Below are positions 841-28,237 of a stretch of 36,063 nt of DNA, piece by piece. The translations under genes were made by a program, and so were the position numbers. Under the pieces are notes generated by a model. That model was not told the DNA's origin. It did no database searches and saw only the letters and a list, made by a program, of their open reading frames with translations. This stretch comes from a virus: positions 1 through 36,063 of IMG/VR virus record IMGVR_UViG_3300045738_000970, one strand, 5' to 3'. How positions within the stretch are numbered: position 1 is the first letter of the stretch; each line of letters starts with the position of its first letter.

Positions 841-1170
841 ATGTCAACTAGTATGCAAAAGAGGAAAATGTTAAAAACTTTGTCTGAGTATTATATTAAG
901 AAGGGTAAAGTATATGACTCTTCCGTAGAATACAGTAGGCAAGATGATACTCCTTATTCAATTAAAGAGATAAAGAAAATCATGGGTGGTTGGAGTATGC
1001 TATTTAAGTATATAAATACTGATTATCCAAATCTTGAAAAAGATATTGAAAAGGGAAAATCGAAGGATAAGGGAAACTTGAAGAAAGCTAAAAAAGTTCC
1101 TCCACCTCCTAAGCCCGTTCGCACTGCAGGTTTCAGCATCACTACGGGACGGAATGAGACAAATACATGA
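841..1170 (+). CDS. small lysine-rich protein between portal and protease/capsid
   Basis: This 109-residue basic protein has no firm assignment. It starts immediately after the portal stop and its stop overlaps the next start by four bases (ATGA), so it is translationally coupled to both neighbours. Residues ~10-65 look helical, and the segment TPYSIKEIKKIMGGWSMLF loosely recalls the short helical DNA-binding repeat that accompanies some homing endonucleases (a proline/serine turn, a helix, then F/GGW-like). That resemblance is inference only, and no nuclease domain is present. The C-terminal third is lysine- and proline-rich and probably flexible. A role in head assembly or portal-DNA contact is possible from position alone. 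Confidence 0.6.
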   Translation: MSTSMQKRKMLKTLSEYYIKKGKVYDSSVEYSRQDDTPYSIKEIKKIMGGWSMLFKYINTDYPNLEKDIEKGKSKDKGNLKKAKKVPPPPKPVRTAGFSITTGRNETNT

Positions 1171-3185
1171 ATAAAATTTTCAATCTAACTTCCACTTTTA
1201 AAACTCATACTGAGAAGGATGGAAGTGCTAGTATACGTGGTATGGCAAGTACTTCAGATTTTGATAGAGCTGGAGACAGTATTTCGCCAGATGCGTGGAC
1301 TAAAAGTGGTGGTTTAAATAATTTTAAAAAGAATCCTATTATTCTTTTTAATCATAACTACGACCGACCAATCGGTCGTGCTACAGGTCTCGAGGTAACA
1401 GATAAAGGTCTGAAACTAGAGGCAAGGATTAGTAAGTCGGCTCCTAACGGAGTATGTGACTTAGTTAAGGATGGGGTTCTTGGAGCATTTTCTGTTGGTT
1501 TCCGAGTCAAGGACGCTGATTATATCGAGGAAACTGACGGACTTATGATAAAGGACGCTGAATTGTTTGAGGTCTCGGTTGTTTCCGTACCCTGCAATCA
1601 GGCAGCTACTTTTTCTTTAGCGAAATCGTTTGATTCTATAGAAGAGTATAATGATTTCAAGAAAACTTTCACAAATCGTGTAGATCTAGCCGGTCAGTCT
1701 CTGGCTAAAGAAGATGTGAGAACATCTAGCATAGCTAGTAATGCACCGGTAAGGGCGGAGAAATCCGTGCAAGAGGAGATCGTAATGTCGGAAGATAAAA
1801 CTCCCGAAGTCGACTTGGAAGCTTTTGCTAAGCAAGTGGCAGAACAAACTGCTGCTACCTTTGCAATGAAGCAAGCCGAGCAAAAAGCTGTGGAAAAAGC
1901 TGAAGCCGAAAAGGTAGAAGCTGCGGCCGCAGAGAAAACCAAGCAAGAAGAGGAAGTTAAAACTGCTATTAGAGTAGGAGTTGAGACGGGTGCTGAAAGG
2001 CTTGTAAAAGATGTAGAAGCTAAACTCGCACAAAAAGATGTTGAGATTGCAGAAGTTCTCAAACAGTATAAAACGGATCTTGAGGATAAGAAGGAAGAAA
2101 TTTCTCGCCTTCAAGACTCTAAGCGAGTTTTTGCAAATCGTGGCGACGGTGATATTTCTAAGTGGGGCAAAGAATTTATGTATGCTTCAATTCTTGGAAG
2201 AATTACTGGTAAAGGTTGGGATACTGACTATGCCCGAGATATTATGCAAAAAGCGGGCGTTACCTATGACGCCTCAACTGGTATTGGCCTGGATGCAAGC
2301 GTATCTTCTACTTTCGAGAATGAAGTACGACTTGAGCAAAAGGTCGCTAATCTCTTTAGAGAGATGGCGGTTAATTCAGGTGCTACAGTACTGCCAATCA
2401 TTCCAGATACTGAAGATGCAAATTGGAATGCTACCGGCCTAGAAACTACTGCTAATCTCTTGGAAGAGAAAGGTGCAACCGACAACAACTTTCACGTTGG
2501 TCGCGTAACACTTAATGCTTATCGCTTGATTTCTGGTACATTCATTGCAAACGATACTGACGAGCAAATCGTTGTTAACGTTCTTCCTTGGATTTTATCA
2601 GCTCTTGCACGGGCTCATGCTCGAGCAATTGATGGTTCAATCATGAATGGTACATCTAATCAAGCGGGTCTTGCTGGTGGAGCAGGCACTGATGGTGCAG
2701 GTTCTTTCTTTGCAGCAGATTCAGCTGATGTTACTGATATCGCGAATGATGGTTCAGGTGCACTAACTGGTGCAAACTTACTGTCCATCCGAGCTGAAAT
2801 GGGTAAATATGGAGTTAATCCTGCAGACGTAGCATATGTTGTTAACGTTGAAGAGTATTTTAACCTGATTGCAGATGCGGCGTTCTCAGACATCTCAGAA
2901 GTTGGTAGTGATGTTGCCATGAAGATAGTTGGTCAGGTAGGATCTATTTATGGATCTCCTGTCGTAGCAAGTGATCAATTCTCACGAGCTACTACTAAAA
3001 CAGCAGCCGTTGCGGTTAATGTACATAACTACTTAATGCCTAGATTGAAGGCTGTGAGTATTGAAACTGACTACGAAGTAGCAGGTCAGCGTACTGCGCT
3101 AGTTGCAGCTCAATCCAGAGGATTTGAAGAGCTAGTAGCAGGGTCTGGTGCAGATCAGCCATCTGTTAGAATTGAATACGCCTAA
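1167..3185 (+). CDS. fused HK97-type prohead protease - scaffold - major capsid protein
   Basis: One 672-residue chain combines three functions usually split over two genes. Residues ~20-155 are a U35-type prohead protease: H63 in the FNHNYDRPIG motif and S109 in GAFSVGF are the expected catalytic His and Ser, with an acidic partner likely in DAELFEVSVV (E132/E135). Residues ~210-318 are a long Ala/Glu/Lys coiled coil equivalent to the HK97 delta scaffold. Residues ~322-672 form the HK97-fold capsid subunit, starting near ANRGDGDISKWGKEFMY and ending in AAQSRGFEELVAG...RIEYA. The protease would cut itself and the scaffold away during maturation, probably between residues ~315 and 330. The gene overlaps its upstream neighbour by ATGA and is followed by a hairpin. 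An internal ribosome-binding site before M207 suggests a second, shorter product. Confidence 0.93.
   Translation: MNKIFNLTSTFKTHTEKDGSASIRGMASTSDFDRAGDSISPDAWTKSGGLNNFKKNPIILFNHNYDRPIGRATGLEVTDKGLKLEARISKSAPNGVCDLVKDGVLGAFSVGFRVKDADYIEETDGLMIKDAELFEVSVVSVPCNQAATFSLAKSFDSIEEYNDFKKTFTNRVDLAGQSLAKEDVRTSSIASNAPVRAEKSVQEEIVMSEDKTPEVDLEAFAKQVAEQTAATFAMKQAEQKAVEKAEAEKVEAAAAEKTKQEEEVKTAIRVGVETGAERLVKDVEAKLAQKDVEIAEVLKQYKTDLEDKKEEISRLQDSKRVFANRGDGDISKWGKEFMYASILGRITGKGWDTDYARDIMQKAGVTYDASTGIGLDASVSSTFENEVRLEQKVANLFREMAVNSGATVLPIIPDTEDANWNATGLETTANLLEEKGATDNNFHVGRVTLNAYRLISGTFIANDTDEQIVVNVLPWILSALARAHARAIDGSIMNGTSNQAGLAGGAGTDGAGSFFAADSADVTDIANDGSGALTGANLLSIRAEMGKYGVNPADVAYVVNVEEYFNLIADAAFSDISEVGSDVAMKIVGQVGSIYGSPVVASDQFSRATTKTAAVAVNVHNYLMPRLKAVSIETDYEVAGQRTALVAAQSRGFEELVAGSGADQPSVRIEYA
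1771..1787 (+). promoter_or_regulatory. internal ribosome-binding site and in-frame ATG (M207) within the protease-capsid gene
   Basis: AAGAGGAG at 1771-1778 lies six bases before an ATG at 1785, in frame with the fusion gene (codon 207). It falls exactly at the boundary between protease and scaffold. Initiation here would give a 466-residue scaffold-capsid protein, which has the layout of an ordinary HK97-type capsid precursor. The Shine-Dalgarno match is better than the one before the gene's own start at 1167. Use of this start is inference. Confidence 0.55.
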
Positions 3186-13215: not shown

Positions 13216-14330
13216 CAACATTAATAGATGCAGTACAGAAACAAGATCCAGGCAGCGGCCTGATAGAACTTTTTGAGTTAATACTTGATAATAGCACTAC
13301 TTTATATTTTCATTCGGGGGTTGAGGCAGATTTAAGCTCTGTCCAATTCAGAGACAAAACTAGTCCTTATACCACGAGAACTTATACTGCTATTCCTATA
13401 GAAATGAAAGGAATAGAAAGAAAGACAGACGGAGCTTCTGCTCGCCCTACCTTAACTGTAGCAAATGTACTAGCAACATTTAGTGATGCTATAGACATGA
13501 CTAATAAAGATCTAATTGGAAAAAGATTAATTAGACGAACAACTTTACAAAGATATTTAGTAGGTGAAGCTGATGATGCGTCTCCTCCTATTGAATTTCC
13601 AACAGAAAAATTCATAATTGATAGAATTGCAAGTGAGAATAAAGTAGCTATAATATTTGAACTAGCTGCAGCTTCAGACCTTGAAGGAGTAAAGCTACCT
13701 AATAGAATTGTTGTAGGAAAATACTGTAGTTGGGAGTATCAAGGGACTCTTTCAAATTCAAGAGGAGGATGTATTTGGCCTACTAATAGTAAAATACTTG
13801 TAGCGGGTACTGAATATAAAGCTTATTTCAATATAAAGGATGAACCTATAGTAAGTGCTAGCCTTACTTATAATGCTTATAGTGCTAGTACAGGGTATAA
13901 TAGAAATACTTGGGTAACTCATGCAGGAAATACTTGGAGATCAGATGTAGGGGCCGGTCCTGGTGATTCTTCAGCGAATCATACTGGAAATACGCCTGCT
14001 TATGGGTCCACGTATTGGACAAGAGCATGGCCTTATACGGTATATAGTGCTTCTGCTACATATACTTATGATAAAGACGACCATACTTATGTAGAATATA
14101 ATGATACAATTTGGAAAACTGTAAGAGCAATTACAACTGCAGGACAAACTCCAGTTATTGGGTCTAATTATTGGGTAAGAGGGGATTTGTGTGGAAAAAT
14201 ATTAGGCTCTTGTAAATGTAGATTTCAATTTCAACCAGATTCTGGCAACAATAATCTACCCTCTACTGATAAGAACACAGAAAAAGTTCTCCCTTTTGGC
14301 GGATTTCCAGGGAGCGAAAAGTATCGATGA
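13212..14330 (+). CDS. minor tail protein, lambda gpL-like, with inserted carbohydrate-binding-like repeats
   Basis: Residues 1-210 follow lambda gpL: an N-terminal GLIELFELILDNSTTLYFHS strand region, PIEMKGIERKTDGASARPTL, then GKRLIRRTTLQRYL. Lambda gpL binds an iron-sulphur cluster through four cysteines. Here C172 and C187 (GKYCSWEYQG, SRGGCIWP) and C327, C334 and C336 (DLCGKILGSCKCRF) are the candidates. Between the two groups, residues ~215-324 form two tandem repeats of about 50 residues with the pattern SAS-Y ... (N)TW/IW ... TPxxGSxYWxR, resembling family 5/12 chitin- or glycan-binding modules. Lambda gpL is shorter (about 232 residues), and the insertion accounts for most of the difference. 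It overlaps both neighbours by ATGA. The insertion would place sugar-binding patches on the tail tip. Confidence 0.85.
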   Translation: MTTLIDAVQKQDPGSGLIELFELILDNSTTLYFHSGVEADLSSVQFRDKTSPYTTRTYTAIPIEMKGIERKTDGASARPTLTVANVLATFSDAIDMTNKDLIGKRLIRRTTLQRYLVGEADDASPPIEFPTEKFIIDRIASENKVAIIFELAAASDLEGVKLPNRIVVGKYCSWEYQGTLSNSRGGCIWPTNSKILVAGTEYKAYFNIKDEPIVSASLTYNAYSASTGYNRNTWVTHAGNTWRSDVGAGPGDSSANHTGNTPAYGSTYWTRAWPYTVYSASATYTYDKDDHTYVEYNDTIWKTVRAITTAGQTPVIGSNYWVRGDLCGKILGSCKCRFQFQPDSGNNNLPSTDKNTEKVLPFGGFPGSEKYR

Positions 14331-15031
14331 TCAGTGCTACACTTCTTTCTAATATATTTAAGCACTTTGAAGAATGTGCTCCTAAGGAAGGTTGTGGCGT
14401 TTTAGCAGTAAAAAGGGGGAAGTTAAAATGGATTCCTTGTACTAATGTAGCTGCAGGAGATGATGACTTTGCACTAGACCCAGATGAGTATCTTAATATA
14501 TATCATACTCATGATATTGTAGGTATAGTACACAGTCATGTTGAGGCTTCTTGTGAGCCTAGTACATCTGATATAAAATATTGTAATGCTTCTAATATAC
14601 CGTATTATATTTTTAGTTATCCTAGTATGGATTGTTATAAATTGGAGCCAAAAAATTCAGATATTCCTTTAATGGGTAGAGACTATGAATGGGGAATTAC
14701 AGACTGTTTAGAAGCAGTAAGAGATTATTACAGAAAAGAACTGTATATTGATTTAAAAAAGAAAAGAGTATATAAGAAAGACTGGTGGAAATCAGATGAA
14801 AATTATATGACGGATGAGCACATTAAAGAATGGGGCTTTAGTCCTGTAGATAATTTACAAAAGAATGATTTATTAATCTTTGCAATAGAGAGGAATATTC
14901 CCAATCATTGCGGGGTTTATTTAGGTAACGACTTATTTTACCATCATATGGAAAATAGGGTTTCATGTAGGGAAAACATATATCCCTTGTGGAAAAGATT
15001 TTTTAAACAGGCATATAGATATGAAACGTAA
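14327..15031 (+). CDS. tail tip assembly protein, lambda gpK-like (JAMM + NlpC/P60)
   Basis: This 234-residue protein has two enzyme domains. The N-terminal one is a JAMM/MPN metallopeptidase fold: E21 in KEGCGVL, then H69, H71, S79 and D82 in the H-x-H-x7-S-x2-D motif. The C-terminal one is NlpC/P60-like: C127 in GITDCLEAVRDYY and H194 in NHCGVYLGND as the catalytic Cys and His. Together these match lambda gpK, thought to process tail-tip components or cut peptidoglycan cross-links during DNA entry. Key residues of both domains are present, so activity is plausible. It overlaps the L-like gene by ATGA and the next gene by 11 bases. Confidence 0.9.
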   Translation: MISATLLSNIFKHFEECAPKEGCGVLAVKRGKLKWIPCTNVAAGDDDFALDPDEYLNIYHTHDIVGIVHSHVEASCEPSTSDIKYCNASNIPYYIFSYPSMDCYKLEPKNSDIPLMGRDYEWGITDCLEAVRDYYRKELYIDLKKKRVYKKDWWKSDENYMTDEHIKEWGFSPVDNLQKNDLLIFAIERNIPNHCGVYLGNDLFYHHMENRVSCRENIYPLWKRFFKQAYRYET

Positions 15032-16082
15032 AGTATACTTAATAGGGGAAATAGAAAAGAGGTTTGGCTCTGAATTTTCTATGTACGCTGATAATTATGG
15101 GGAAATAATTAGAAATATTGATTGTAATCGCCCTGGCTTTAAAGAATATTTGTTAGATTGTCATAGAGAAGGAATAAACTTTACAATTAATTTTGCAGGT
15201 AAAAACATTGAAGAAAAAGAACTGCTTACTCCTATAAAAGAAGGAGATGTTACTATTACTGCTATACCTGCGGGATCTAAAAGTGAAATAGGTCAAATAA
15301 TTACAGGTGCAATATTAATTTATATAGGCTTCGTAGTAGGCGGGCTAGAAGGAGCGAGATGGGGGCTGACCTACGCACAGATGGGTTCTATGATTACAGC
15401 TGTGGGTATGTCTCTAGCTGTACAAGGCATACAGGCTATGCTTGCACCCGATCCTGCCACTGATGCAGAAGAAGAAGAGGGTTATTTATATACTGGAAGC
15501 GAAGCAATAGTAGTAGAAGGAGATCCAGTTCCCGTATTATATGGAAAATTAAGAGTTCCAGGACAACCAGTATCTGTAGCAATAAATACTGCAGGAAGTT
15601 TGTCCAACTTCTCTGGTTCTGGGTTTGGTTTTACAGGAGAAAGTAGTGGTGGGTCAGCAGGCATAGATGATTGCTTTGACCCAGATACTTTTATACAAAT
15701 GGCAGACGGTTCTGAAAAGAAAATTAAATATATTAAACTTGGTGATAATACTAAAGGTGGAGAAGTTACGGGGGTATTCCAATTTAAAACAAGGGCAGAT
15801 AGTATACATAATTATAAAGGTGTTATAGTTGCAGGAGGCCATTTTGTCAGAGAAAACGATGAGTTTATACTGGTTAAAGACAGTCCATTAGCAATTAAAA
15901 TAGATAAAATACCTATTGTATATTCACTTCGTACAACAGATAGAAGAATATTTATTAATGATATTGAATTTGCTAATTATAATGGGGATGGTATAGTTAA
16001 AAACTTTTTAATTAATGCAGAGTCAGATTTAACAGGTTTTGATAAAGAGGTTCTACGACAAGTAGAATTAAGGCTAATATAA
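15021..16082 (+). CDS. tail assembly protein, lambda gpI-like, with C-terminal Hint domain
   Basis: Residues 1-85 are a ubiquitin-like beta-grasp region and residues ~92-140 hold two hydrophobic helices (IITGAILIYIGFVVGG; ITAVGMSLAVQGIQAML), as in lambda gpI. Residues ~155-190 hold a VEGDPVPVLYGKLRVPG stretch seen in this family. After a Gly/Ser linker (195-215) the chain continues with a Hint-like module: C218 in DDCFDPDTFIQMADGSEKKI, then IKLGD, block-B-like AGGHFVREND with H274, and a C-terminal RIFINDIEFANYNGDG motif. Lambda gpI has no such part. There is no C-terminal His-Asn plus C-extein nucleophile, so protein splicing is not expected. N-terminal cleavage or transfer at C218 is possible and would free the I-like part. 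The stop overlaps the next start (TAATG). Confidence 0.82.
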   Translation: MKRKVYLIGEIEKRFGSEFSMYADNYGEIIRNIDCNRPGFKEYLLDCHREGINFTINFAGKNIEEKELLTPIKEGDVTITAIPAGSKSEIGQIITGAILIYIGFVVGGLEGARWGLTYAQMGSMITAVGMSLAVQGIQAMLAPDPATDAEEEEGYLYTGSEAIVVEGDPVPVLYGKLRVPGQPVSVAINTAGSLSNFSGSGFGFTGESSGGSAGIDDCFDPDTFIQMADGSEKKIKYIKLGDNTKGGEVTGVFQFKTRADSIHNYKGVIVAGGHFVRENDEFILVKDSPLAIKIDKIPIVYSLRTTDRRIFINDIEFANYNGDGIVKNFLINAESDLTGFDKEVLRQVELRLI

Positions 16083-18958
16083 TGGCTAGCATAGAAAAAC
16101 ATGGAGTCAACTTTAAGCTTACTAATGGGTCTTATATACCTTTAACTACTCCTTTAAAAAATCAAGTTATTTCTATGACAGATATAATTTCCGAAGGGCC
16201 TATAGAAGGGCTCCCTTACGGAGCTGCTTCTATATATTTAGACAATGCTCCTGCGGCAACTTTAGAACAAGCTGGAGTGTCTTTATCTAGTACAGGGACA
16301 ATATTTACTCTAACTTCGGGCTCTACTGCTGTATCTATTTCCAACTTACCGCAAGATTTAACGCCTTGGGCAGCGGGAGGAGCGGATGGGGATAAGTATT
16401 TAGTGATTAGAGGTTTAGCCACAAATAGTCTTATTAGTGCTGTAGCTAATGATTCGGATAATCCGCTTTCTTTTACTCTTACTTCTTCATCTGATTTCTT
16501 TTACAATTGGATGCTACATAATTCATCTCTGGGTCCAACTAATCAGCCTTATATAACATTAAAACTTACTTCAGCTCAGTCTGATTTCGATCTTTACGCA
16601 CGAATTAATAGTATAACTAGTACTACCGTAGCAAAATGTACAACCGTTAGTGGGATTAAACCATTTGATTGGGTGGACACTTCGGGTAATACTAATAAGT
16701 ATATTCTTGAAGTACATGCCCCTTTTAAAATTGCTAGTATAAGTGCTGATGCTTTAATTTTAGATTCTTCTACCAATACAGTTTCAGATACTTTTTCTGG
16801 AGATATTTCAGATTCAATATTTAATAGTGACTTTACTAATAATAATGTTATTTCAGATACTAAATCAATAGATGGATTTAGTTATCAATTCAGAAGGGGT
16901 ACACTGGGTCAAACTCCAGTAGATGATGTTTATGAGGGTTCTGGAGCTACTTCTATTACTGCATCTATAAATCAAAATCTTGACTATCCAGATTCCGGCA
17001 GCACTTGGCCACTGGTCGTAGGGGTTGCAAATTTGACGGCATATACAAAAACTTCTAGTCAGATGGCACTTTCTAGTTCAACAGCACGTCAGGTAGATTT
17101 GGTTAAAATGGTCTTTTCTTATCCCGCTGGATTAATATCAAAAGGCGTAGTGCAGTGGTATGATGGACTTGCTGCTTATCTAATTGAAATAGCTATTGAT
17201 AAGGGAGATGGTTTCGGCAGTTTTAATAATATAAATCCTAGTGGAGAATTTACCTATCATGTTGCAGCAACTAGTAGTTCTTTCTTTCTTCAAGAAGATA
17301 TATCTTTAGATGCTTATAAACCTTTTAACGATTTTAAAATTAGAATTACTAGAGCTAGTAGAGATGACCTTGGTCCAAAGCAAGATCGAACTTATGATCA
17401 AAATAATTCTGTTATTTTAAATTCAGTATGGACAAGTACTACTTGTATAATAAGAGAACGGCTTAACCATCCTTATACGGCTCTTGCGCAAGTTAGATGT
17501 AATGCAAAACAATTTAAAAGTATACCTAAAAGAAGTTATGAGTGTAAGGGTAGATTGATACAAATACCCAGTAATTATGTTACTAGGGATCAATCTACTA
17601 ATGGAATTGCTCATTATAGACGAGTTTCTTCTAATGGAGCAATTCATGCAACTGACGATCAGGATTGGGACGGCAGTTTTAGAGACTTACAATATACAGA
17701 TAATCCAGCCTGGGTTTTTTATGATATTGTAACTCATAATAGATATGGTTTAGGTACTTGGATAGAGACTTCTGATATAGATAAATATGCATTATATAGA
17801 ATTGCAAGATATTGTGATGAATTAGTTCCAGATGGAAAAGGAGGCACAGAACCACGATTTTTAGCTAATATTTATCTTGCAAAAGCTACTGAAGCCTATA
17901 AAGTTTTAAAAGATATGGCTACTACTTTTCGAGCCATTTTGTTCTGGTCTGAAGGTAATATCTTGCCAGTAATAGATCAAGCAAGAGATCCAATCTATAA
18001 TTTTACAAAAGGTAATGTTATTGATGGAAAATTTAATTATGAGGGCACAGGTTCAAAACTAAGATCTAATCAAGTTGCAGTTACTTGGAATAATCCTGAC
18101 AATGATTATGTACCAGAAGCCCTTTTAGTAGAAGACAGAGAAAATATAGTTAAAACTGGTAAAATAATTATAGAAGAAGCTGTTGCATTTGGGGCGACAT
18201 CTATAGGACAAGCTACTCGTTATGGGCGTTGGAAATTATGGACTGCTATAAATCAAACTGAAGTAGTATCTTTTAAAACAGCAATAAGTGGAGCTTTTAT
18301 AGGCCCTGGAGATATAATAAATATTCAAGATGCAGACCGTTATGATACAGCTTATAGTGGAAGAATTTCTACTACCGGAACTCTTAGTACAACTGTAGTA
18401 CCTTTAGATAGAACAATTGTATTAAATTCAGGTAGTGTTTATGAACTAAGTGTTCTTATTCAAGAACCCGCCGCTCGTTTAGCTCAAGATACTGCAACTA
18501 TAAGTACAGTAGTATATAATATGGGAGATATTATTCCTGGATCTTATACTGAAGAAACTGCTTCTAATATTCAAGATGATGATGATACTATAGTTCAAAT
18601 TGTTTGGGCGCCTTATACTCATGTACAAAGTAAAACAGTTTCTACAAGTTCTGGTAGTGTAACATCTTTAACAGTATCTGCAGCTTTTTCTTATGCCCCT
18701 GATCGAGAGGCTATTTGGTTATTAAAAGAAACTGTTACGTCTAGTGGATTAGATCGAGAGGGTTCTAAGAAAATGTATAAAATATTAGGAATAACTGAGT
18801 CTAAAAAGAATGAATTTGGAATAACTGCTGTAGAACATTTTAATGAAAAATTTGATGCTGTTGATGAAGACTTTGGGAGACCTTATGTAGATACTCTATT
18901 GGCGCCGGCGGTGTTTGTGCCCTCCCCCACAAATCTGGGAGTGGATATTGGAGACTAA
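16082..18958 (+). CDS. central tail-tip host-attachment protein, lambda gpJ-like
   Basis: The 958-residue product follows the I-like gene, as J does in lambda, and shows the J-type core. The N-terminal part has QVISMTDIISEGPIEGLPYG and IYLDNAPA. Residues ~450-620 have IRERLNHPYTALAQVR, KGRLIQIPSNY, the NPAWVFYDIVTHNRYGLG motif and a helical RIARYCDELVPDG stretch. Residues ~620-760 have FLANIYLAKATEAYKVLKDM and VAVTWNNPDNDY. Residues ~60-270 hold a beta-rich insertion relative to the core. J trimerises at the tip, closes the tube and contacts the receptor. The long fibre extension found at the C-terminus of lambda J is missing here and seems to be carried by the separate next gene. Confidence 0.9.
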   Translation: MASIEKHGVNFKLTNGSYIPLTTPLKNQVISMTDIISEGPIEGLPYGAASIYLDNAPAATLEQAGVSLSSTGTIFTLTSGSTAVSISNLPQDLTPWAAGGADGDKYLVIRGLATNSLISAVANDSDNPLSFTLTSSSDFFYNWMLHNSSLGPTNQPYITLKLTSAQSDFDLYARINSITSTTVAKCTTVSGIKPFDWVDTSGNTNKYILEVHAPFKIASISADALILDSSTNTVSDTFSGDISDSIFNSDFTNNNVISDTKSIDGFSYQFRRGTLGQTPVDDVYEGSGATSITASINQNLDYPDSGSTWPLVVGVANLTAYTKTSSQMALSSSTARQVDLVKMVFSYPAGLISKGVVQWYDGLAAYLIEIAIDKGDGFGSFNNINPSGEFTYHVAATSSSFFLQEDISLDAYKPFNDFKIRITRASRDDLGPKQDRTYDQNNSVILNSVWTSTTCIIRERLNHPYTALAQVRCNAKQFKSIPKRSYECKGRLIQIPSNYVTRDQSTNGIAHYRRVSSNGAIHATDDQDWDGSFRDLQYTDNPAWVFYDIVTHNRYGLGTWIETSDIDKYALYRIARYCDELVPDGKGGTEPRFLANIYLAKATEAYKVLKDMATTFRAILFWSEGNILPVIDQARDPIYNFTKGNVIDGKFNYEGTGSKLRSNQVAVTWNNPDNDYVPEALLVEDRENIVKTGKIIIEEAVAFGATSIGQATRYGRWKLWTAINQTEVVSFKTAISGAFIGPGDIINIQDADRYDTAYSGRISTTGTLSTTVVPLDRTIVLNSGSVYELSVLIQEPAARLAQDTATISTVVYNMGDIIPGSYTEETASNIQDDDDTIVQIVWAPYTHVQSKTVSTSSGSVTSLTVSAAFSYAPDREAIWLLKETVTSSGLDREGSKKMYKILGITESKKNEFGITAVEHFNEKFDAVDEDFGRPYVDTLLAPAVFVPSPTNLGVDIGD

Positions 18959-18960
18959 TT

Positions 18961-21900
18961 ATGCCAAGTAATGAAAATATGCGAAATGTAAGAATTCATT
19001 GGGAACATTCAAAAGATGCGGATGGTACTGTTTATGATCAGTTAGCTGGTTATGAAATACACCATAATCTTCCAAATATTGAGTCTCCATATATATGCGA
19101 TCCAACTATAAATTCTTCTGGAAATATAGCCTTACCTGAAGGTATATATAGTATTGGAATATGTGCGGTTAGTACAGAAGGACATAAGTCAAAAAAAGTT
19201 GTCAAGAATTTTCAAATATCTAATTCTATTCAAAATCACGAAGTTTCAAGAAACTATGGTATACCCTTAGGCGGGGTTATGAGTACAAATAGCTATATAA
19301 CTGCTGCGGGCATATTTAAAACAGAATCTGGAACAGGTTGGTCTTTTGCTAGTGCAGGTACTCCTCAGCAGTATAAAAGTTTCCAAAATGGGCACGCAAA
19401 TAGATACTCCCAAGATTGTAGTGATATAGCTGAAGAAAATTTTAGTATAATGACTGATCTGGAGGCACAATATAAATCTCATTATATAGTTTTTGATGCC
19501 AGTGATAGTAATGATCCTTTAAAACTTATTAAATATGAAGATTTAGTTTATTCTACTACTAATAATTTAAACGTAGGTTACTTTTATGATACAGATGATG
19601 GAAATTCTGGAGAATCCACAGATTTACCTGAACTAACTTTTGTAACTAAAACAGGAACAGCTTCTGTAGTTGCAAGATCAAATAGTGTTATTGGAACTGG
19701 AACGAGTTTTACTACTGAATACGCTATCGACGATATAATATATTTTAGTAGTACAAAAGCAGCAAAAGTTACTTTTATAGATTCAAATGAATCTATAACT
19801 ATTGATAAAGTTTTTGATACTGCTATAACAAATTCAGCTATTAAAGTACAAGGATTTACTCCGGATAAAAACTATGATGCAGCTATTTATGCTGTAAGGA
19901 ATGATGAAGGAACTTTTAAAATACTTCCAATCAATTTAACTATAGATGAGTCTGTATTTAATCGTAGCAGAATTGCTACTTTACAAGCTGCCCCAAATTT
20001 ATTGAATTTTGATAATGCTGAAGTTCTTACTACTTCTTACACTAATATTGTACTTACTGCTACTGGAAATGGATTTATCAGCCCTAAATTTAAAATAACT
20101 GGTACTGGATTTAATAATTCAGAAATTAGTCAAAGTGCTCATGATAGTTTTCAAAATCCTAATACTGGAACTAAACAATTTGTTTATGAATTAGATTTCG
20201 TAGATGCATTTCCTGATCCGGCGGTAGATTTGGATTTTACTGTTACAATAACAGAAGCATCAGATGAGTCTAATACTGATTTACAATCTACTCAGTCAAT
20301 TACTATACCTTTTTTGAAAGTTGGAGCTACAACTTATACTTGGACTAAATATGGAACTAACGCTTCTGGAGCGGGTTTAACTGATACTTATACAGAAGGT
20401 ACTACAACATATATAGGAATGGCTTTTAATAAAACAGCCGCTACAGAAAGTACTACAGCAGGAGATTATATTTGGAGTAGACTTGAAGGCGAAGATGGAG
20501 CTACATACTATACTTGGATTAAATATGGAACTAGTGCTGCTGGAGCAGGTCTAACTAATACTTACTCAGCAGGTACTACAACATATGTAGGGTATGCTTA
20601 CGGCAAAACAACGGCTACTGAAAGTACTATTGCGGGAGATTATACTTGGAGTAGACTTGAGGGAGTAAATGCTGATAACAAATTTACTTGGGTTAAATAT
20701 GGAACTAACGCTTCTGGAGCGGGTTTAACTGATACTTACTCAGCAGGTACTACAACATATATAGGTATGGCTTTTAATAAAACAACGGCTACTGAAAGTA
20801 CTACTGCTGGAGATTATACTTGGACTAAAATAGAAGGTGAGGATGGAGTTACAACTTATACTTGGGTTAAATATGGAACTAATGCTTCTGGAGCGGGTTT
20901 AACTGATACTTATACAGCAGGTACTACAACATATATAGGAATGGCTTTTAATAAAACAACGGCTACTGAAAGTATTACTGCTGGAGATTATACTTGGACT
21001 AAAATAGAAGGTGAGGATGGAGACCCTGGAGATCCAGGAGCTGTAGGTAAAAAAACTGCAACTGGATATTTATACTATAATACTCAACAAGGAAGCCCGC
21101 CTTCTCCGGCTCCTAGTGACTCAGGTGTAACTTATACTTTTTCTACCGGTGTTATGGCAGGGGGCGTTATAGGTACAGGTACTACTAATTGGAGCTTAAT
21201 AGCTCCTACAGCTTCAGGCGGAACTGCAGGTTCAAAAATGTACTATGTATATTGGAATGCTGAAGAAACTACAACCGCCGGTGGAACTGCAAGTCCAGAT
21301 TTTGGTTCAACTGTTTATACTGCAACAAATTTTACAGGCTTGGTTAGATTTGATGGAACTAATAAAATAGAGGATGGTCTTGGTACGGGTAATGCGCTTT
21401 CTTTTGGTAGTAGCGGCACAACCGAAATTGATGGGGCTAAGATTACAACTGGTACAGTACTTGCTGCTCATATAAGTATTACCGGTAAATCTAATTCAGA
21501 TTTAGATAATGATGAAGGATTTACAGATGATACTGTAGCTGATCAAAAGACTACTGCATCTGAAGTAAATTTAGCAAATAAAGCGGCGGGTAAGGTCGGA
21601 GGTTGGACAATTACTAGTTCAGCCATACAAGGAGGACAAGGTGTATATATAGGTGGAGCTAAAACTACATATGCCTCAACCACGGCGGGGTGGTGGATAG
21701 GACAAGCATCTGGTAGTGATGTGGCTAAGCTCAATATCGGAGATGCTAGTAATTATTTGAAATGGACCGGTACTGGTCTAGATATAAAAGGAGATATTAC
21801 TTTAAATAATGCGTCTACTACTAATCTTTCAACTTTTAATAATGATGCAGTTTGGACTAATGATGCTGTAGCTAATACTAAGACTACTTTATCTGCAGCG

Positions 21901-22953
21901 AATGCGGCTGTAAACGCCAATGTAACTAATATTTCTGGGGGCGTAATTCAAACTGGATATCTTAGTGCCGCTAGAATACAAGCAGGTACAATAACTGGCG
22001 AAAAGTTCGAAACAGATAATAATACAATAGGATCTACATCTAATAAATTTGCATTTAATGGGACTACAGAATATGGAGTAACTGGTTATAAGACAGTAAT
22101 AGGAGCAACAGCAGTTGGCAGTAGTACGGCTGCAGCTCTTTTCTTTAGCAGTGGGGGTACTTTTGCTTTGGGGGCTCAAACTAGTACTTCCGGTCAATCT
22201 ACAGCGCTATTTTTCAACAGTGCTTTAATCGGGGCGGAAACATATAAAAATAGGGCGGACTTAGCCAATGATTTGTATGGTAGTGTCTTCCAAGATGACA
22301 GTGGAAAGTATGCTAAATTGGCTACACCAACTGAAGCTGGCTGGTTTCAAGATGCGGCATCTACACCTAATTATGTAAAAATAGCAACCGGAGCTTATGC
22401 ACTTTATTATGTTGGTGCAATTGGACCTTTTACAGGAAGCCACGATGCTTTGTTGTCAGATTCAGAAACCTGTGAAGTAGGAGATATACTTGTAGATCAG
22501 GGAGTTGCGTATGCTAAATCTGTTTCTGATGTAATTACAAATGTTACTCGTTCTACTTCGTCCAGTCAAAAATCTGTAATAGGTATATTTGTTCAAGAAA
22601 CTCCTAACCATGTTCCCGCGCCTTTAGCAAAAGAAATAGTTACAATTGTGGGTACGGGACCCGCTGCAACTACAACTTCAACTCATATAATTGATCCCGC
22701 TCATGATTCAATAGTAGCAAACAAAACTATTATAGTAATGAATTCAGTGGGAGAAGGCCAGGTTAATGTTTGTGGTGAGAACGGAGATATAGAAATCGGA
22801 GATTTAATAGTTTCTTCTTCTACTATAGGTAAGGGTATGAAACAAGATGATGATATTGTTAGATCGTGTACTGTTGGAAAAGCTAGAGAAGTGGTAACAT
22901 TTGCTTCTGCAAGTAGCACAGCGCAAATCGCTTGTATATACATGTGTGGATAA
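18961..22953 (+). CDS. large tail fibre protein with four 58-residue repeats
   Basis: This 1330-residue protein starts two bases after the J-like gene with a good ribosome-binding site (GGAG, 8 bases upstream). Residues ~1-90 are fibronectin-like (VRIHWEHSKDADGTVYD, GIYSIGICAVSTEGHKSK). Around residues 225-300 there is a beta module of the type TASVVARSNSVIGTGTSF. Residues 458-689 are four tandem repeats. A short collagen-like GDPGDPGA stretch follows, suggesting a trimer. Residues ~850-1010 are beta-helix or coiled-coil fibre shaft. The last ~170 residues (AIGPFTGSHDALL to IGDLIVSSSTIGKGMKQDDD) form a compact C-terminal domain seen in other phage fibres, probably for trimerisation or folding. 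It likely continues the J-like tip as the central fibre. Confidence 0.85.
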   Translation: MPSNENMRNVRIHWEHSKDADGTVYDQLAGYEIHHNLPNIESPYICDPTINSSGNIALPEGIYSIGICAVSTEGHKSKKVVKNFQISNSIQNHEVSRNYGIPLGGVMSTNSYITAAGIFKTESGTGWSFASAGTPQQYKSFQNGHANRYSQDCSDIAEENFSIMTDLEAQYKSHYIVFDASDSNDPLKLIKYEDLVYSTTNNLNVGYFYDTDDGNSGESTDLPELTFVTKTGTASVVARSNSVIGTGTSFTTEYAIDDIIYFSSTKAAKVTFIDSNESITIDKVFDTAITNSAIKVQGFTPDKNYDAAIYAVRNDEGTFKILPINLTIDESVFNRSRIATLQAAPNLLNFDNAEVLTTSYTNIVLTATGNGFISPKFKITGTGFNNSEISQSAHDSFQNPNTGTKQFVYELDFVDAFPDPAVDLDFTVTITEASDESNTDLQSTQSITIPFLKVGATTYTWTKYGTNASGAGLTDTYTEGTTTYIGMAFNKTAATESTTAGDYIWSRLEGEDGATYYTWIKYGTSAAGAGLTNTYSAGTTTYVGYAYGKTTATESTIAGDYTWSRLEGVNADNKFTWVKYGTNASGAGLTDTYSAGTTTYIGMAFNKTTATESTTAGDYTWTKIEGEDGVTTYTWVKYGTNASGAGLTDTYTAGTTTYIGMAFNKTTATESITAGDYTWTKIEGEDGDPGDPGAVGKKTATGYLYYNTQQGSPPSPAPSDSGVTYTFSTGVMAGGVIGTGTTNWSLIAPTASGGTAGSKMYYVYWNAEETTTAGGTASPDFGSTVYTATNFTGLVRFDGTNKIEDGLGTGNALSFGSSGTTEIDGAKITTGTVLAAHISITGKSNSDLDNDEGFTDDTVADQKTTASEVNLANKAAGKVGGWTITSSAIQGGQGVYIGGAKTTYASTTAGWWIGQASGSDVAKLNIGDASNYLKWTGTGLDIKGDITLNNASTTNLSTFNNDAVWTNDAVANTKTTLSAANAAVNANVTNISGGVIQTGYLSAARIQAGTITGEKFETDNNTIGSTSNKFAFNGTTEYGVTGYKTVIGATAVGSSTAAALFFSSGGTFALGAQTSTSGQSTALFFNSALIGAETYKNRADLANDLYGSVFQDDSGKYAKLATPTEAGWFQDAASTPNYVKIATGAYALYYVGAIGPFTGSHDALLSDSETCEVGDILVDQGVAYAKSVSDVITNVTRSTSSSQKSVIGIFVQETPNHVPAPLAKEIVTIVGTGPAATTTSTHIIDPAHDSIVANKTIIVMNSVGEGQVNVCGENGDIEIGDLIVSSSTIGKGMKQDDDIVRSCTVGKAREVVTFASASSTAQIACIYMCG
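20332..21027 (+). repeat. four in-phase 174-bp (58-residue) tandem repeats in fibre gene
   Basis: The YTW(T/V/I)KYGT motif recurs at residues 459, 517, 575 and 633, an exact 58-residue spacing. Each unit also holds GAGLTxTY, GTTTYIG, (K)TTATES, AGDYTW and a closing (K/R)xEGxDG. Units 3 and 4 are almost identical at DNA level; unit 2 is most divergent. Exact periodicity without indels points to tandem duplication under structural constraint. Confidence 0.95.
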
Positions 22954-25235: not shown

Positions 25236-25715
25236 ATGGCACAAATTATTAAGCTCCGACGGTCTAGTACTGAGGGAGCTGAACCTACTACTGCTCAACT
25301 TGCCCTAGGTGAAGTTGCAATTAACACCTATGACGGTAAGATGTTCATCAAGAAAAATGATGGCTCTGATTCAATTGTAGAAATTGGAACAGCAGGTGGT
25401 GGTAATAGTGTATATGTAAAAACTACTGTTACTGCAACAGCAAATCAAACAACCGTCGGGGGTCTTACTTATACAGTAGGACTTGTAGACGTATATCTAA
25501 ACGGAGTTAAATTACTTATACCAACAGATGTAACTGCTGCTAATGGAACAAGTATAGTCTTGGCCTCTGGAGCTGCTGTCGGTGATCTCATACAGGTAGT
25601 TGCTTTTATTGCGGGGGATTCTGTTTCAACACACATTATTAAAGCAGATGGTGGAAGTGCTACAACAATTTACACAGCAGCACAAACAATAAACGGAGGA
25701 GATGCCAATGGCTGA
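25236..25715 (+). CDS. fibre protein with Mtd-N-like domain and VYLNG module (cassette gene A1)
   Basis: The 159-residue product has two parts. Residues 1-52 are Mtd-N-like (QIIKLRRSSTEGAEPTTAQL then ALGEVAINTYDGKMFI). Residues ~58-159 are a beta module with TATANQTTVGGLTYTVGLV, DVYLNGVKLL, GTSIVLASGAAVGDLIQVVAF, common in fibre-associated phage proteins. The start is set by a strong AGGAGG (25225-25230) five bases upstream. The 38-base gap before it holds only a short GCGT/ACGC hairpin. The second half is clearly paralogous to the gene at 27274-27636. Its stop overlaps the next start by eight bases. Confidence 0.78.
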   Translation: MAQIIKLRRSSTEGAEPTTAQLALGEVAINTYDGKMFIKKNDGSDSIVEIGTAGGGNSVYVKTTVTATANQTTVGGLTYTVGLVDVYLNGVKLLIPTDVTAANGTSIVLASGAAVGDLIQVVAFIAGDSVSTHIIKADGGSATTIYTAAQTINGGDANG

Positions 25716-27009
25716 TGTTATACAACTTAGACGGGATACTGCATCCAATTGGACTAGTGCTAATCCCACTTTAGCCAGTGGAGAATTAGGCCTTGAAACT
25801 GATACTGGAAAACTTAAATTAGGTACAGGAGCCTTGGCTTGGAATTCTGCTAGCTACTATACATTGGCAACAACAGGGTATGCGCCTTTAGCTAGTCCTA
25901 CATTTACAGGAACGGTAACTGGGCCAACAATCAATGCTAGTACGGCATTACAGATTGGAGGTGCTGCAGTTACATCAACGGCGCCTGAGTTAAACATATT
26001 AGATGGAGTTACAAGTACTACAGCAGAATTAAACATACTAGATGGTGTAACCTCCACAGCTGCGGAACTAAATAAACTAGATGGGGTCACAGCTACTACA
26101 GCAGAATTAAACATACTAGATGGTGTAACCTCCACAGCTGCGGAACTAAATAAACTAGATGGGGTCACAGCTACTACAGCCGAATTAAATTATGTAGATG
26201 GAGTTACGTCAGCTATTCAAACTCAGATAGATACTAAAGGTACAGTATCTAATTTGTCAGATTTAAGCATAACATCTACTGCGGCTGAATTAAATAAATT
26301 AGATGGTTTAGCTAGAGGTTCTATTATTTATGGAAACGCTTCGGCAGCAACCACAGCTCTTACCAAAGGAACAGCTGATCAAGTTCTTACTAGTGATGGT
26401 ACAGATATAGCTTGGGCAGACGCCGGTGGTGGCGGTGGGAGTGGTTGGACATACTTATCCACTATTACTGCTAATGCAAACCAAATTGATTATACCGGTA
26501 TTTCATCAACTTATGATGACTATATGGTTATATTCAATGATATTCAAGGCTCATACACTGGGCACGACTTCTACTGTTATTTCAAAATGGGTTCCGTATG
26601 GCATGCAGAAGGAACAGGCACTAACAGTACGTCCGAGTGTTATCACTACTTACAACGTGTCATGACGCTTGGATCGGGATCAATCTCGGGTTCGAGCGCC
26701 GGAACAGTCGCTAGTCCTGCCACCCGCATAAAGCCAATCATAGGTGGCTGTATGTCTAATAACACTGGCGAGGGTTTTAGTGGTGTTCTTTATCTACCTA
26801 ATGTAAATGGCTCTGAGCAAAAATCATGTTATAGTCGCTCAACTGGAATTATGCCTTATAATAACAAGTGGTCAGAAACGCACGCTTGTATCAAGTCTAG
26901 AGCAAGTCCTTCCGTAGTTGCAACAAATGCCCTCACTGGTATAAGATTCAAATTATCGAATGGTACTATGACAGGAACTTTTAAATTCTACGGACTAGCA
27001 AAATCATAG
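25708..27009 (+). CDS. tail fibre protein with Mtd-N domain and AELN-LDGV repeats (cassette gene B1)
   Basis: I place the start at ATG 25708 rather than 25702 because GGAGGAG (25695-25701) is then six bases away, as in the paralogue at 27629. The protein of 433 residues begins with a clear Mtd-N domain (VIQLRRDTASNWTSANPTL, SGELGLETDTGKLKLG). Six consecutive 13-residue units of the form (S/T)xxELNxLDGVT(S/A) follow at residues ~89-170, with one more after a linker, building a rigid shaft. From residue ~245 a Gly-rich hinge leads to a C-terminal domain (GWTYLSTITANANQIDYTGI; YDDYMVIFNDIQ; LTGIRFKLSNGTMTGTFKFY) seen at the tips of many fibres and probably receptor- or glycan-binding. Confidence 0.83.
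   Translation: MADVIQLRRDTASNWTSANPTLASGELGLETDTGKLKLGTGALAWNSASYYTLATTGYAPLASPTFTGTVTGPTINASTALQIGGAAVTSTAPELNILDGVTSTTAELNILDGVTSTAAELNKLDGVTATTAELNILDGVTSTAAELNKLDGVTATTAELNYVDGVTSAIQTQIDTKGTVSNLSDLSITSTAAELNKLDGLARGSIIYGNASAATTALTKGTADQVLTSDGTDIAWADAGGGGGSGWTYLSTITANANQIDYTGISSTYDDYMVIFNDIQGSYTGHDFYCYFKMGSVWHAEGTGTNSTSECYHYLQRVMTLGSGSISGSSAGTVASPATRIKPIIGGCMSNNTGEGFSGVLYLPNVNGSEQKSCYSRSTGIMPYNNKWSETHACIKSRASPSVVATNALTGIRFKLSNGTMTGTFKFYGLAKS
26023..26178 (+). repeat. two identical 78-bp tandem repeats in fibre gene
   Basis: Bases 26023-26100 and 26101-26178 are identical over all 78 bases. Each encodes two 13-residue shaft units (one with AELNILDGVTS, one with AELNKLDGVTA). A further diverged half unit follows at 26179. 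Perfect identity amid diverged copies points to a recent duplication or gene conversion in the shaft. Confidence 0.95.
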
Positions 27010-27273: not shown

Positions 27274-27636
27274 ATGACTAGAGCAAGAGACTTAGCAAAT
27301 TTAATAGTTCATGAGCATGAGGCTGGTCTTACTTATGTAAAAACTACGGGTACTGCATCAGCCGGTCAAACAACTGTTACAGGACTTACTTATACAGCAG
27401 GACTTGTAGATGTATATTTGAATGGGATTAAATTAATTGTAGGAACAGATGTAACTGCAACTAATGGTACTAGCATAACATTGGCCACAGGAGCTGCTGC
27501 TGGAGATCTTATACAAGTAATTGCTTTTGCTGGAACAAGTGAATTAGCAGTACAAATTTTTACTTTAGACGGTGGAGCAGCGGGCTCAACTTATACAAGC
27601 GTACAAACAACAGATGGAGGAGCAGCCGGTGGCTAA
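27274..27636 (+). CDS. fibre-associated protein with VYLNG module (cassette gene A2)
   Basis: This 120-residue protein opens with TRARDLANL, an N-terminal tag also found on the gene at 33130 (SRARDLAD). The rest (YVKTTGTASAGQTTVTGLTY, VDVYLNGIKLIVG, GTSITLATGAAAGDLIQVIAF) is paralogous to the second half of the gene at 25236, at both protein and DNA level. Relative to that gene, the Mtd-N-like head is replaced by the RARDLA tag. AAGGA lies eight bases before the start. Its end encodes the GGAGGAG ribosome-binding site of the next gene and overlaps it by eight bases. Confidence 0.72.
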   Translation: MTRARDLANLIVHEHEAGLTYVKTTGTASAGQTTVTGLTYTAGLVDVYLNGIKLIVGTDVTATNGTSITLATGAAAGDLIQVIAFAGTSELAVQIFTLDGGAAGSTYTSVQTTDGGAAGG

Positions 27637-28237
27637 TATTATACAAATCAGACGAGATACAGCAGCTAATTGGACTAGTGTTAATCCTACAATGGCCACT
27701 GGAGAAATTGGTTTTGAAACTGATACTAAAAAACTTAAAGTAGGAGACGGTTCCACAGCTTGGACATCTGTTGGTTATTATACATTAGGAGCAGCAGGAT
27801 ATGTTCAGTTAGATTCTGCCCCAACATTTACGGGAACGGTTACTGCACCTACTGTTAATGCTAGTACAGCTCTTCAAATTGGAGGAGTAGCAGTAGCTCC
27901 TACAGTAACAGAACTTAATTATGTAGATGGAGTTACTTCTGCTATTCAAACACAATTAAATTCTAAACAAGCGCATCCCACTTTAAAAGGTGTAAACTAT
28001 ACTATGTCAAGTGGAGAATTTATTATTGCAACTGCGGGGTCTATAACTTTAACACTACCTGCTTCTCCAAGTGCGGGAGATAACGTAACAGTTAAAGATG
28101 GTACAGGAGCAGCAGCTTTTACAGTGGCCCGTAACAGTTCAAAGATTGCGAGTAGCGCAACAGATTTAACTTTTGATAAAAACTGGGCTGAAATTACAAT
28201 GACATATATTAATTCGACAATAGGATGGAGCGTATAA
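27629..28237 (+). CDS. short tail fibre protein with Mtd-N domain (cassette gene B2)
   Basis: The start is taken as GTG 27629: GGAGGAG (27616-27622) lies six bases upstream, and both spacing and the eight-base overlap with the preceding gene match the paralogous cassette exactly; an earlier in-frame ATG at 27572 lies wholly inside the preceding gene. The 202-residue product begins ANIIQIRRDTAANWTSVNPT with GEIGFETDTKKLKVGDGSTA, a textbook Mtd-N domain. One ELNYVDGVTSAIQTQ shaft unit follows. The C-terminal ~85 residues (GEFIIATAGSITLTLPASPS, GDNVTVKDGTGAAAF, NSTIGWSV) form a small beta domain frequent at fibre ends. It lacks the long shaft and tip of its paralogue. Confidence 0.78.
   Translation: MANIIQIRRDTAANWTSVNPTMATGEIGFETDTKKLKVGDGSTAWTSVGYYTLGAAGYVQLDSAPTFTGTVTAPTVNASTALQIGGVAVAPTVTELNYVDGVTSAIQTQLNSKQAHPTLKGVNYTMSSGEFIIATAGSITLTLPASPSAGDNVTVKDGTGAAAFTVARNSSKIASSATDLTFDKNWAEITMTYINSTIGWSV

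Follow-up and report, generated by a model that had tools for sequence, protein, structure and literature searches.

Organization of the locus

The window, i.e. the whole stretch of 36,063 bases analysed here, carries lambda-like portal, protease/capsid, tape measure, M and L genes in addition to those of Table 1. Between a K-like and a J-like gene we found an ORF of 353 aa (15021-16082, with a TAA stop at 16080-16082), of which residues 3-191 match the tail assembly protein family PHROG_32 (E 2.9e-36). By tblastn this part matches the gpI of many isolated phages; the Pfam model Lambda_tail_I gives E 0.007 with the ORF, under its cut-off. Both marks of a gpI-family gene, the sequence itself and the K-like and J-like flanking genes, are present in the window. 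In lambda, gpI consists of helices, a plug and strands, the latter running between the hub domains of gpJ, and the tube is blocked until receptor binding (PMC11101478, PMC10721106). The window protein belongs to the same family and occupies the same place between K and J, but residue 223 is the last one of the lambda protein (PMC10721106), whereas here the gpI part is followed by a linker, a predicted Hint domain and a conserved tail, the last two being called hereafter the cassette.

Table 1. Features of the gpI-type gene and of its neighbours in the window
Feature	Position	Strand	Evidence
gpK-like gene (JAB and NlpC/P60), upstream neighbour	14327..15031	+	Pfam, E 3e-12 and 8e-12
gpI-family (tail assembly protein I) part, residues 1-191	15021..15593	+	PHROG_32, Pfam, tblastn
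Gly/Ser-rich linker, residues 192-217, GIDD last before Cys218	15594..15671	+	sequence
Predicted Hint core, residues 218-321	15672..15983	+	AF2 model, structure alignment, Pfam/NCBIfam matches of the family
Cys218, putative Cys1 nucleophile (block A)	15672..15674	+	invariant, 64/64
His274, block B His	15840..15842	+	invariant, 64/64
Asn319, place of the intein terminal Asn	15975..15977	+	structure alignment; Asp in 59/64 relatives
Conserved C-terminal tail, residues 322-353, predicted helix-loop-helix	15984..16079	+	AF2, conservation
gpJ-like central tail fibre gene, start overlapping the cassette stop	16082..18958	+	PHROG_31, E 2.7e-121

Two other ORFs of the window deserve mention. The first (1167-3185, 672 aa) has matches in two families, one of head maturation proteases and one of major head proteins, and is probably a protease-capsid fusion. 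The second (18961-22953, 1330 aa) contains several near-identical internal repeats (YTW.KYGT.A.GAGLT.TY..GTTTY) and has no Pfam match at E 0.01.

Evidence for a Hint fold

An earlier note on this DNA, made from the sequence, had proposed that a Hint domain is appended to the I-like tail protein. The elements on which it relied, MADGSEKKIKYIKLGD, H274 and INDIEFANYNG, are all present behind the Gly/Ser-rich linker, and its positions for codon 218 (Cys) and for the end of the ORF are correct. Taken alone, the window sequence gives weak Hint matches (E 0.002-0.1, under the Pfam cut-offs), so that the claim rests on the family. All 19 members of our first alignment match Pfam models of the Hint clan (best E 1.1e-5) as well as an NCBIfam intein-containing model, and 14 of the 19 match TIGR01445 intein_Nterm. 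A first AlphaFold2 run, on 19 near-identical cassettes, reached a pLDDT of 49.5 and was discarded; with a 64-member alignment comprising two subfamilies, the prediction rose to a pLDDT of 88.7 and a pTM of 0.82.

Foldseek retrieved BIL2, Vint, the gp41-1 intein and hedgehog as top matches of this model, which aligns at Z 10.8-13.8 with solved structures of intein, BIL and hedgehog Hint domains. With VIA-align, Z is 13.8 for the MchDnaB-1 intein (rmsd 1.9 A over 99 residues) and 12.9 for hedgehog 1at0, and the structure alignments to inteins take in model residues 1-102/105. Profile comparison of the cassette with the canonical intein-like domain of one relative (L021) gave a probability of 95.8%, while hmmsearch of PDB sequences with the cassette profile returned block A matches only (best E 0.014). 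The C-terminal domain of the ORF, as modelled, is of the Hint superfamily fold. The proposal of a Hint domain on an I-like protein, which the note had made dependent on structure prediction, is thus upheld by the AF2 model, the structure matches, the family profiles and PHROG_32.

Active-site residues

C218 and H274 are kept in each of the 64 relatives, even where identity goes down to 35%, and so are T305, R309, E316 and F317, whereas many positions near Cys1 and the block B His vary. Other residues of the active site depart from known Hint domains. In the TxxH of block B, the Thr position (271) is Ala in the window and Ala or Ser across the family and, by sequence register, the block F His appears to be replaced by the invariant Arg309. 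Given that the block B Thr is important in hedgehog (PMC9163320), the activity of the cassette may be altered by these two changes. They would also suit a structural or binding domain that retains the Hint fold but is no longer reactive, exposed for example at the tail tip, as would the flexible linker always found in front. A kept, non-cleaving domain should indeed show the same conservation of the fold, though hardly that of Cys and His: the invariance of this pair amid variable neighbours makes such a domain unlikely in our opinion.

Residue 319 is the last one aligned with the terminal Asn of several inteins, so that the C-terminal end of the domain is altered, not simply absent. The window and its closest gpI relatives have Asn at this position, against Asp in 59 of the 64. 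The surrounding residues, A318-N319-Y320 in the window and A/G-D-Y/F in most relatives, include neither a penultimate His nor a Cys, Ser or Thr after 319; the cassette lacks the C-terminal His-Asn of inteins and A-type BILs and the Cys/Ser/Thr that follows it in inteins. The earlier note had seen no splicing junction at the C-terminus, which agrees with our reading, and we reject intein-type splicing, for which the needed C-terminal residues are missing. Since Cys1 and the His are kept while the splicing end is lacking, an N-S acyl shift would be possible in theory, and no splicing is expected. As to C-side cleavage, inteins ending in Asp, Gln or Glu have been described (PMC4031507), which makes it unlikely rather than impossible.

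The conserved tail

According to the earlier note the unit ended at FANYNG. This did not hold: a conserved tail of 32 residues comes after, with predicted helices at residues 108-115 and 123-132 of the AF2 model. In subfamily 1 the tail is almost as conserved as the core (mean column entropy of 0.59 versus 0.45 bits); that of subfamily 2 has a different sequence, e.g. GDFETGSDEDWEPHFEMVRQKLNKEL. The unit is Hint plus tail, and it is C-terminal in every complete gene that we read.

In hedgehog, the region following Hint was proposed to be a helix-loop-helix that brings in the sterol (PMC9163320). The tail of the cassette resembles this sterol region in layout only. Such a layout, together with the existence of two subfamilies with different tails, would be consistent with a hedgehog-like conjugation, in which the thioester would be passed to a specific amine or hydroxyl (of a lipid, a glycan or a virion protein) held by the tail, the partner being finally anchored covalently by its C-terminus. 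Layout alone, however, is no proof of ligand binding. No acceptor gene was found, nor, in about the first 720 residues of gpJ, any carrier-specific insertion that could serve as docking partner, and hydrolysis explains the same data in fewer steps; we thus regard conjugation as quite unlikely. In its extended version, phages would have their own equivalent of hedgehog processing: Hint and recognition tail, exchanged as one module, would attach structural proteins, including gpI as the plug of the tail tube, through their C-terminus to a lipid, a glycan or a virion protein, each of the two tail types serving its own acceptor. This we find very doubtful.

Distribution of the cassette among phage structural loci

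In three scans of IMG/VR contigs we could confirm 27, 140 and 198 relatives, the sets overlapping and near-copies being counted. All are on metagenomic contigs, and their locus contexts were assigned by tblastn. Besides the gpI-type carriers (the window, L001-L004 and L033), cassettes of 70-81% identity are found on unrelated proteins of other phages. These non-gpI carriers are encoded beside a hub-type structural gene (phrog_3287), beside an SU10-type adaptor, between terL and portal or adjoining portal. Of 10 N-terminal partners outside gpI, a single one has a PHROG match, namely that of L099, a direct fusion to the hub-type protein. Linkers precede the cassette in the relatives too. Subfamily 2, 35-44% identical to the window cassette and with a tail of its own, is found at loci of the same kinds, and one of its members (L181) is a separate gpI fusion in the same M-L-K-I-J order, for which we found no other close relative. 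On a tree of 64 cassettes, analysed by a quick method, the five context groups require 23 label changes, or 14 when unknown contexts are left out, and for the gpI label two changes are forced by the starred branches. Time and again the cassette has passed from one phage structural locus to another, unrelated one, and its presence on such different carriers speaks for a real and probably catalytic unit.

A survey of Hint domains at the same locus in other phages, as the earlier note had advised, found them at few places. Among 63 gpI-bearing loci, a Hint domain is present, besides the window and L181, only in L210, L003 and L212 (the contigs of L001, L003 and L033 again, or relatives of these); the nearest Hint-less gpI (57-62% identical) have short and variable C-terminal tails. 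Because its partners are unrelated and most gpI homologues are devoid of it, the cassette must have a job that is not particular to gpI, and the release or activation of the I-like protein in tip assembly, suggested by the note, is too specific. In the Pelagibacter phages HTVC023P and HTVC027P, the homologous hub-type gene is present and the cassette absent at that locus, where HTVC027P has a 283-aa protein without Hint and HTVC023P a 54-aa ORF. In isolated-phage records we obtained, at the sensitivity of tblastn, either block A matches that were short and weak (E no better than 0.05) or no match, and no relative was confirmed in the scan of bacterial and archaeal genome contigs.

Selection acts on the cassette. 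Among gpI carriers dN/dS of the Hint part is 0.14-0.33, similar to that of gpI itself, and between the window and subfamily 1 podovirus-type carriers about 0.05-0.14, with dS near saturation: the cassette is kept by purifying selection.

The patchy presence just described, the many context changes on the tree and the invariably 3'-terminal position, where the stop commonly overlaps or sits close to the next start, might all be expected of a mobile or selfish cassette, which would recombine into the 3' ends of structural genes and, by removing itself, leave the host protein unharmed. Yet it has no homing endonuclease within, its sites are a few recurrent structural loci instead of random ones, and the purifying selection on it is strong, so that a selfish element seems rather improbable to us.

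Several observations were made along with this survey. Two genes of the window (25702-27009 and 27572-28237) encode an Mtd_N (major tropism determinant N-terminal) domain. Relatives of the latter occur in many Hint-carrying podovirus-type contigs, which implies that these phages have tail-fibre modules in common too; in the DNA compared, Mtd_N-domain tail-fibre genes were the only ones common to the window and these carriers. In L021 (3512-4000) and L037 (carrier residue 196 onward), the same protein has, just ahead of the cassette, another intein-like domain of canonical type (CFIAGTKITMADG ... VVHNKG), with a His-Asn end followed by Lys, like A-type BIL. Two contigs, 3300030107_000322 (L167, L179) and 3300027791_000101 (L132/L152, L186), bear each two Hint-bearing genes a few kb apart, with differing N-terminal parts. 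In L015 and L058 an in-frame stop stands directly before the cassette (around 3998 and 5998); we do not retain a free-standing Hint there, since neighbouring genes are broken too and a sequencing error is likely.

A proposed autoprocessing role

We propose that the cassette is a C-terminal autoprocessing module that would detach its N-terminal partner via a thioester on C218, a reading that in our judgement could stand or fall about equally. Cys218 would attack the Asp217-Cys218 bond by an N-S acyl shift, and the resulting thioester, given the lack of a His-Asn end and of a +1 nucleophile, would be resolved by water or by an outside nucleophile, detaching gpI (1-217) from the Hint and tail fragment. 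Asp before Cys favours N-side cleavage in engineered inteins; among the relatives of the cassette the residue preceding Cys1 is not conserved. The place, the time or the nucleophile of the reaction is probably determined by the tail. The N-terminal partner would have no part to play in this chemistry, in keeping with the exchange of partners. In the case of gpI, the plug protein would be trimmed during or after tip assembly: a folded C-terminal domain, unless removed, would have to sit on the outside of the hub.

Annotated Hint domains are already known from phage proteins. In the open-access literature on Hint and intein-like domains of phage structural proteins, we found no description of this arrangement or of its function. 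That a compact conserved module, in two subfamilies, recurs at the same few structural loci of unrelated phages suggests a useful effect on the proteins of the virion or of virion loci. To our knowledge, ligation of a partner by such linkage chemistry is known in no phage tail; if the cassette did ligate a partner, it would represent a new linkage chemistry for the phage tail, and a source of compact N-cleaving Hint modules.

Comparison with known Hint systems

The cassette shares with inteins the fold and block A, but it has neither the penultimate His nor the +1 Cys/Ser/Thr and is not inserted inside a conserved extein, hence the expected lack of splicing. The best viral fold matches are Vint/Hint proteins of giant viruses and uncultured Caudovirales (25-34% identity for the top four), and the Vint structure 8r2c aligns to model residues 1-126, reaching into the tail. 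These proteins have other N-terminal partners, however, and none was recognised as a gpI fusion; the VWA-Vwaint-Vint architecture of Vint (PMC2362128) differs from that of the window protein, whose N-terminal part is gpI and has no VWA match in Pfam. With the Hog domain of hedgehog the cassette has in common a Hint fold followed, at the protein C-terminus, by a conserved tail of helix-loop-helix appearance; on the other hand the tails are not likened by sequence similarity, and the block B Thr is missing in the cassette.

B-type BIL domains, devoid of the C-terminal motif, cleave on their N side (PMC7765530). The cassette is like them by its Hint fold, its Cys1 and block B His, the lack of a His-Asn end, the N-side cleavage expected from these features, and its patchy presence in variable proteins (PMC7765530). 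It differs by its own conserved tail, by Asp or Asn319 at the position of the terminal Asn, by its carriers encoded at phage structural loci and by its block B Thr and block F His positions, the likeness being judged by motifs. By analogy, an N-cleaving Hint domain of the B-type BIL kind appears the most economical reading of the cassette.
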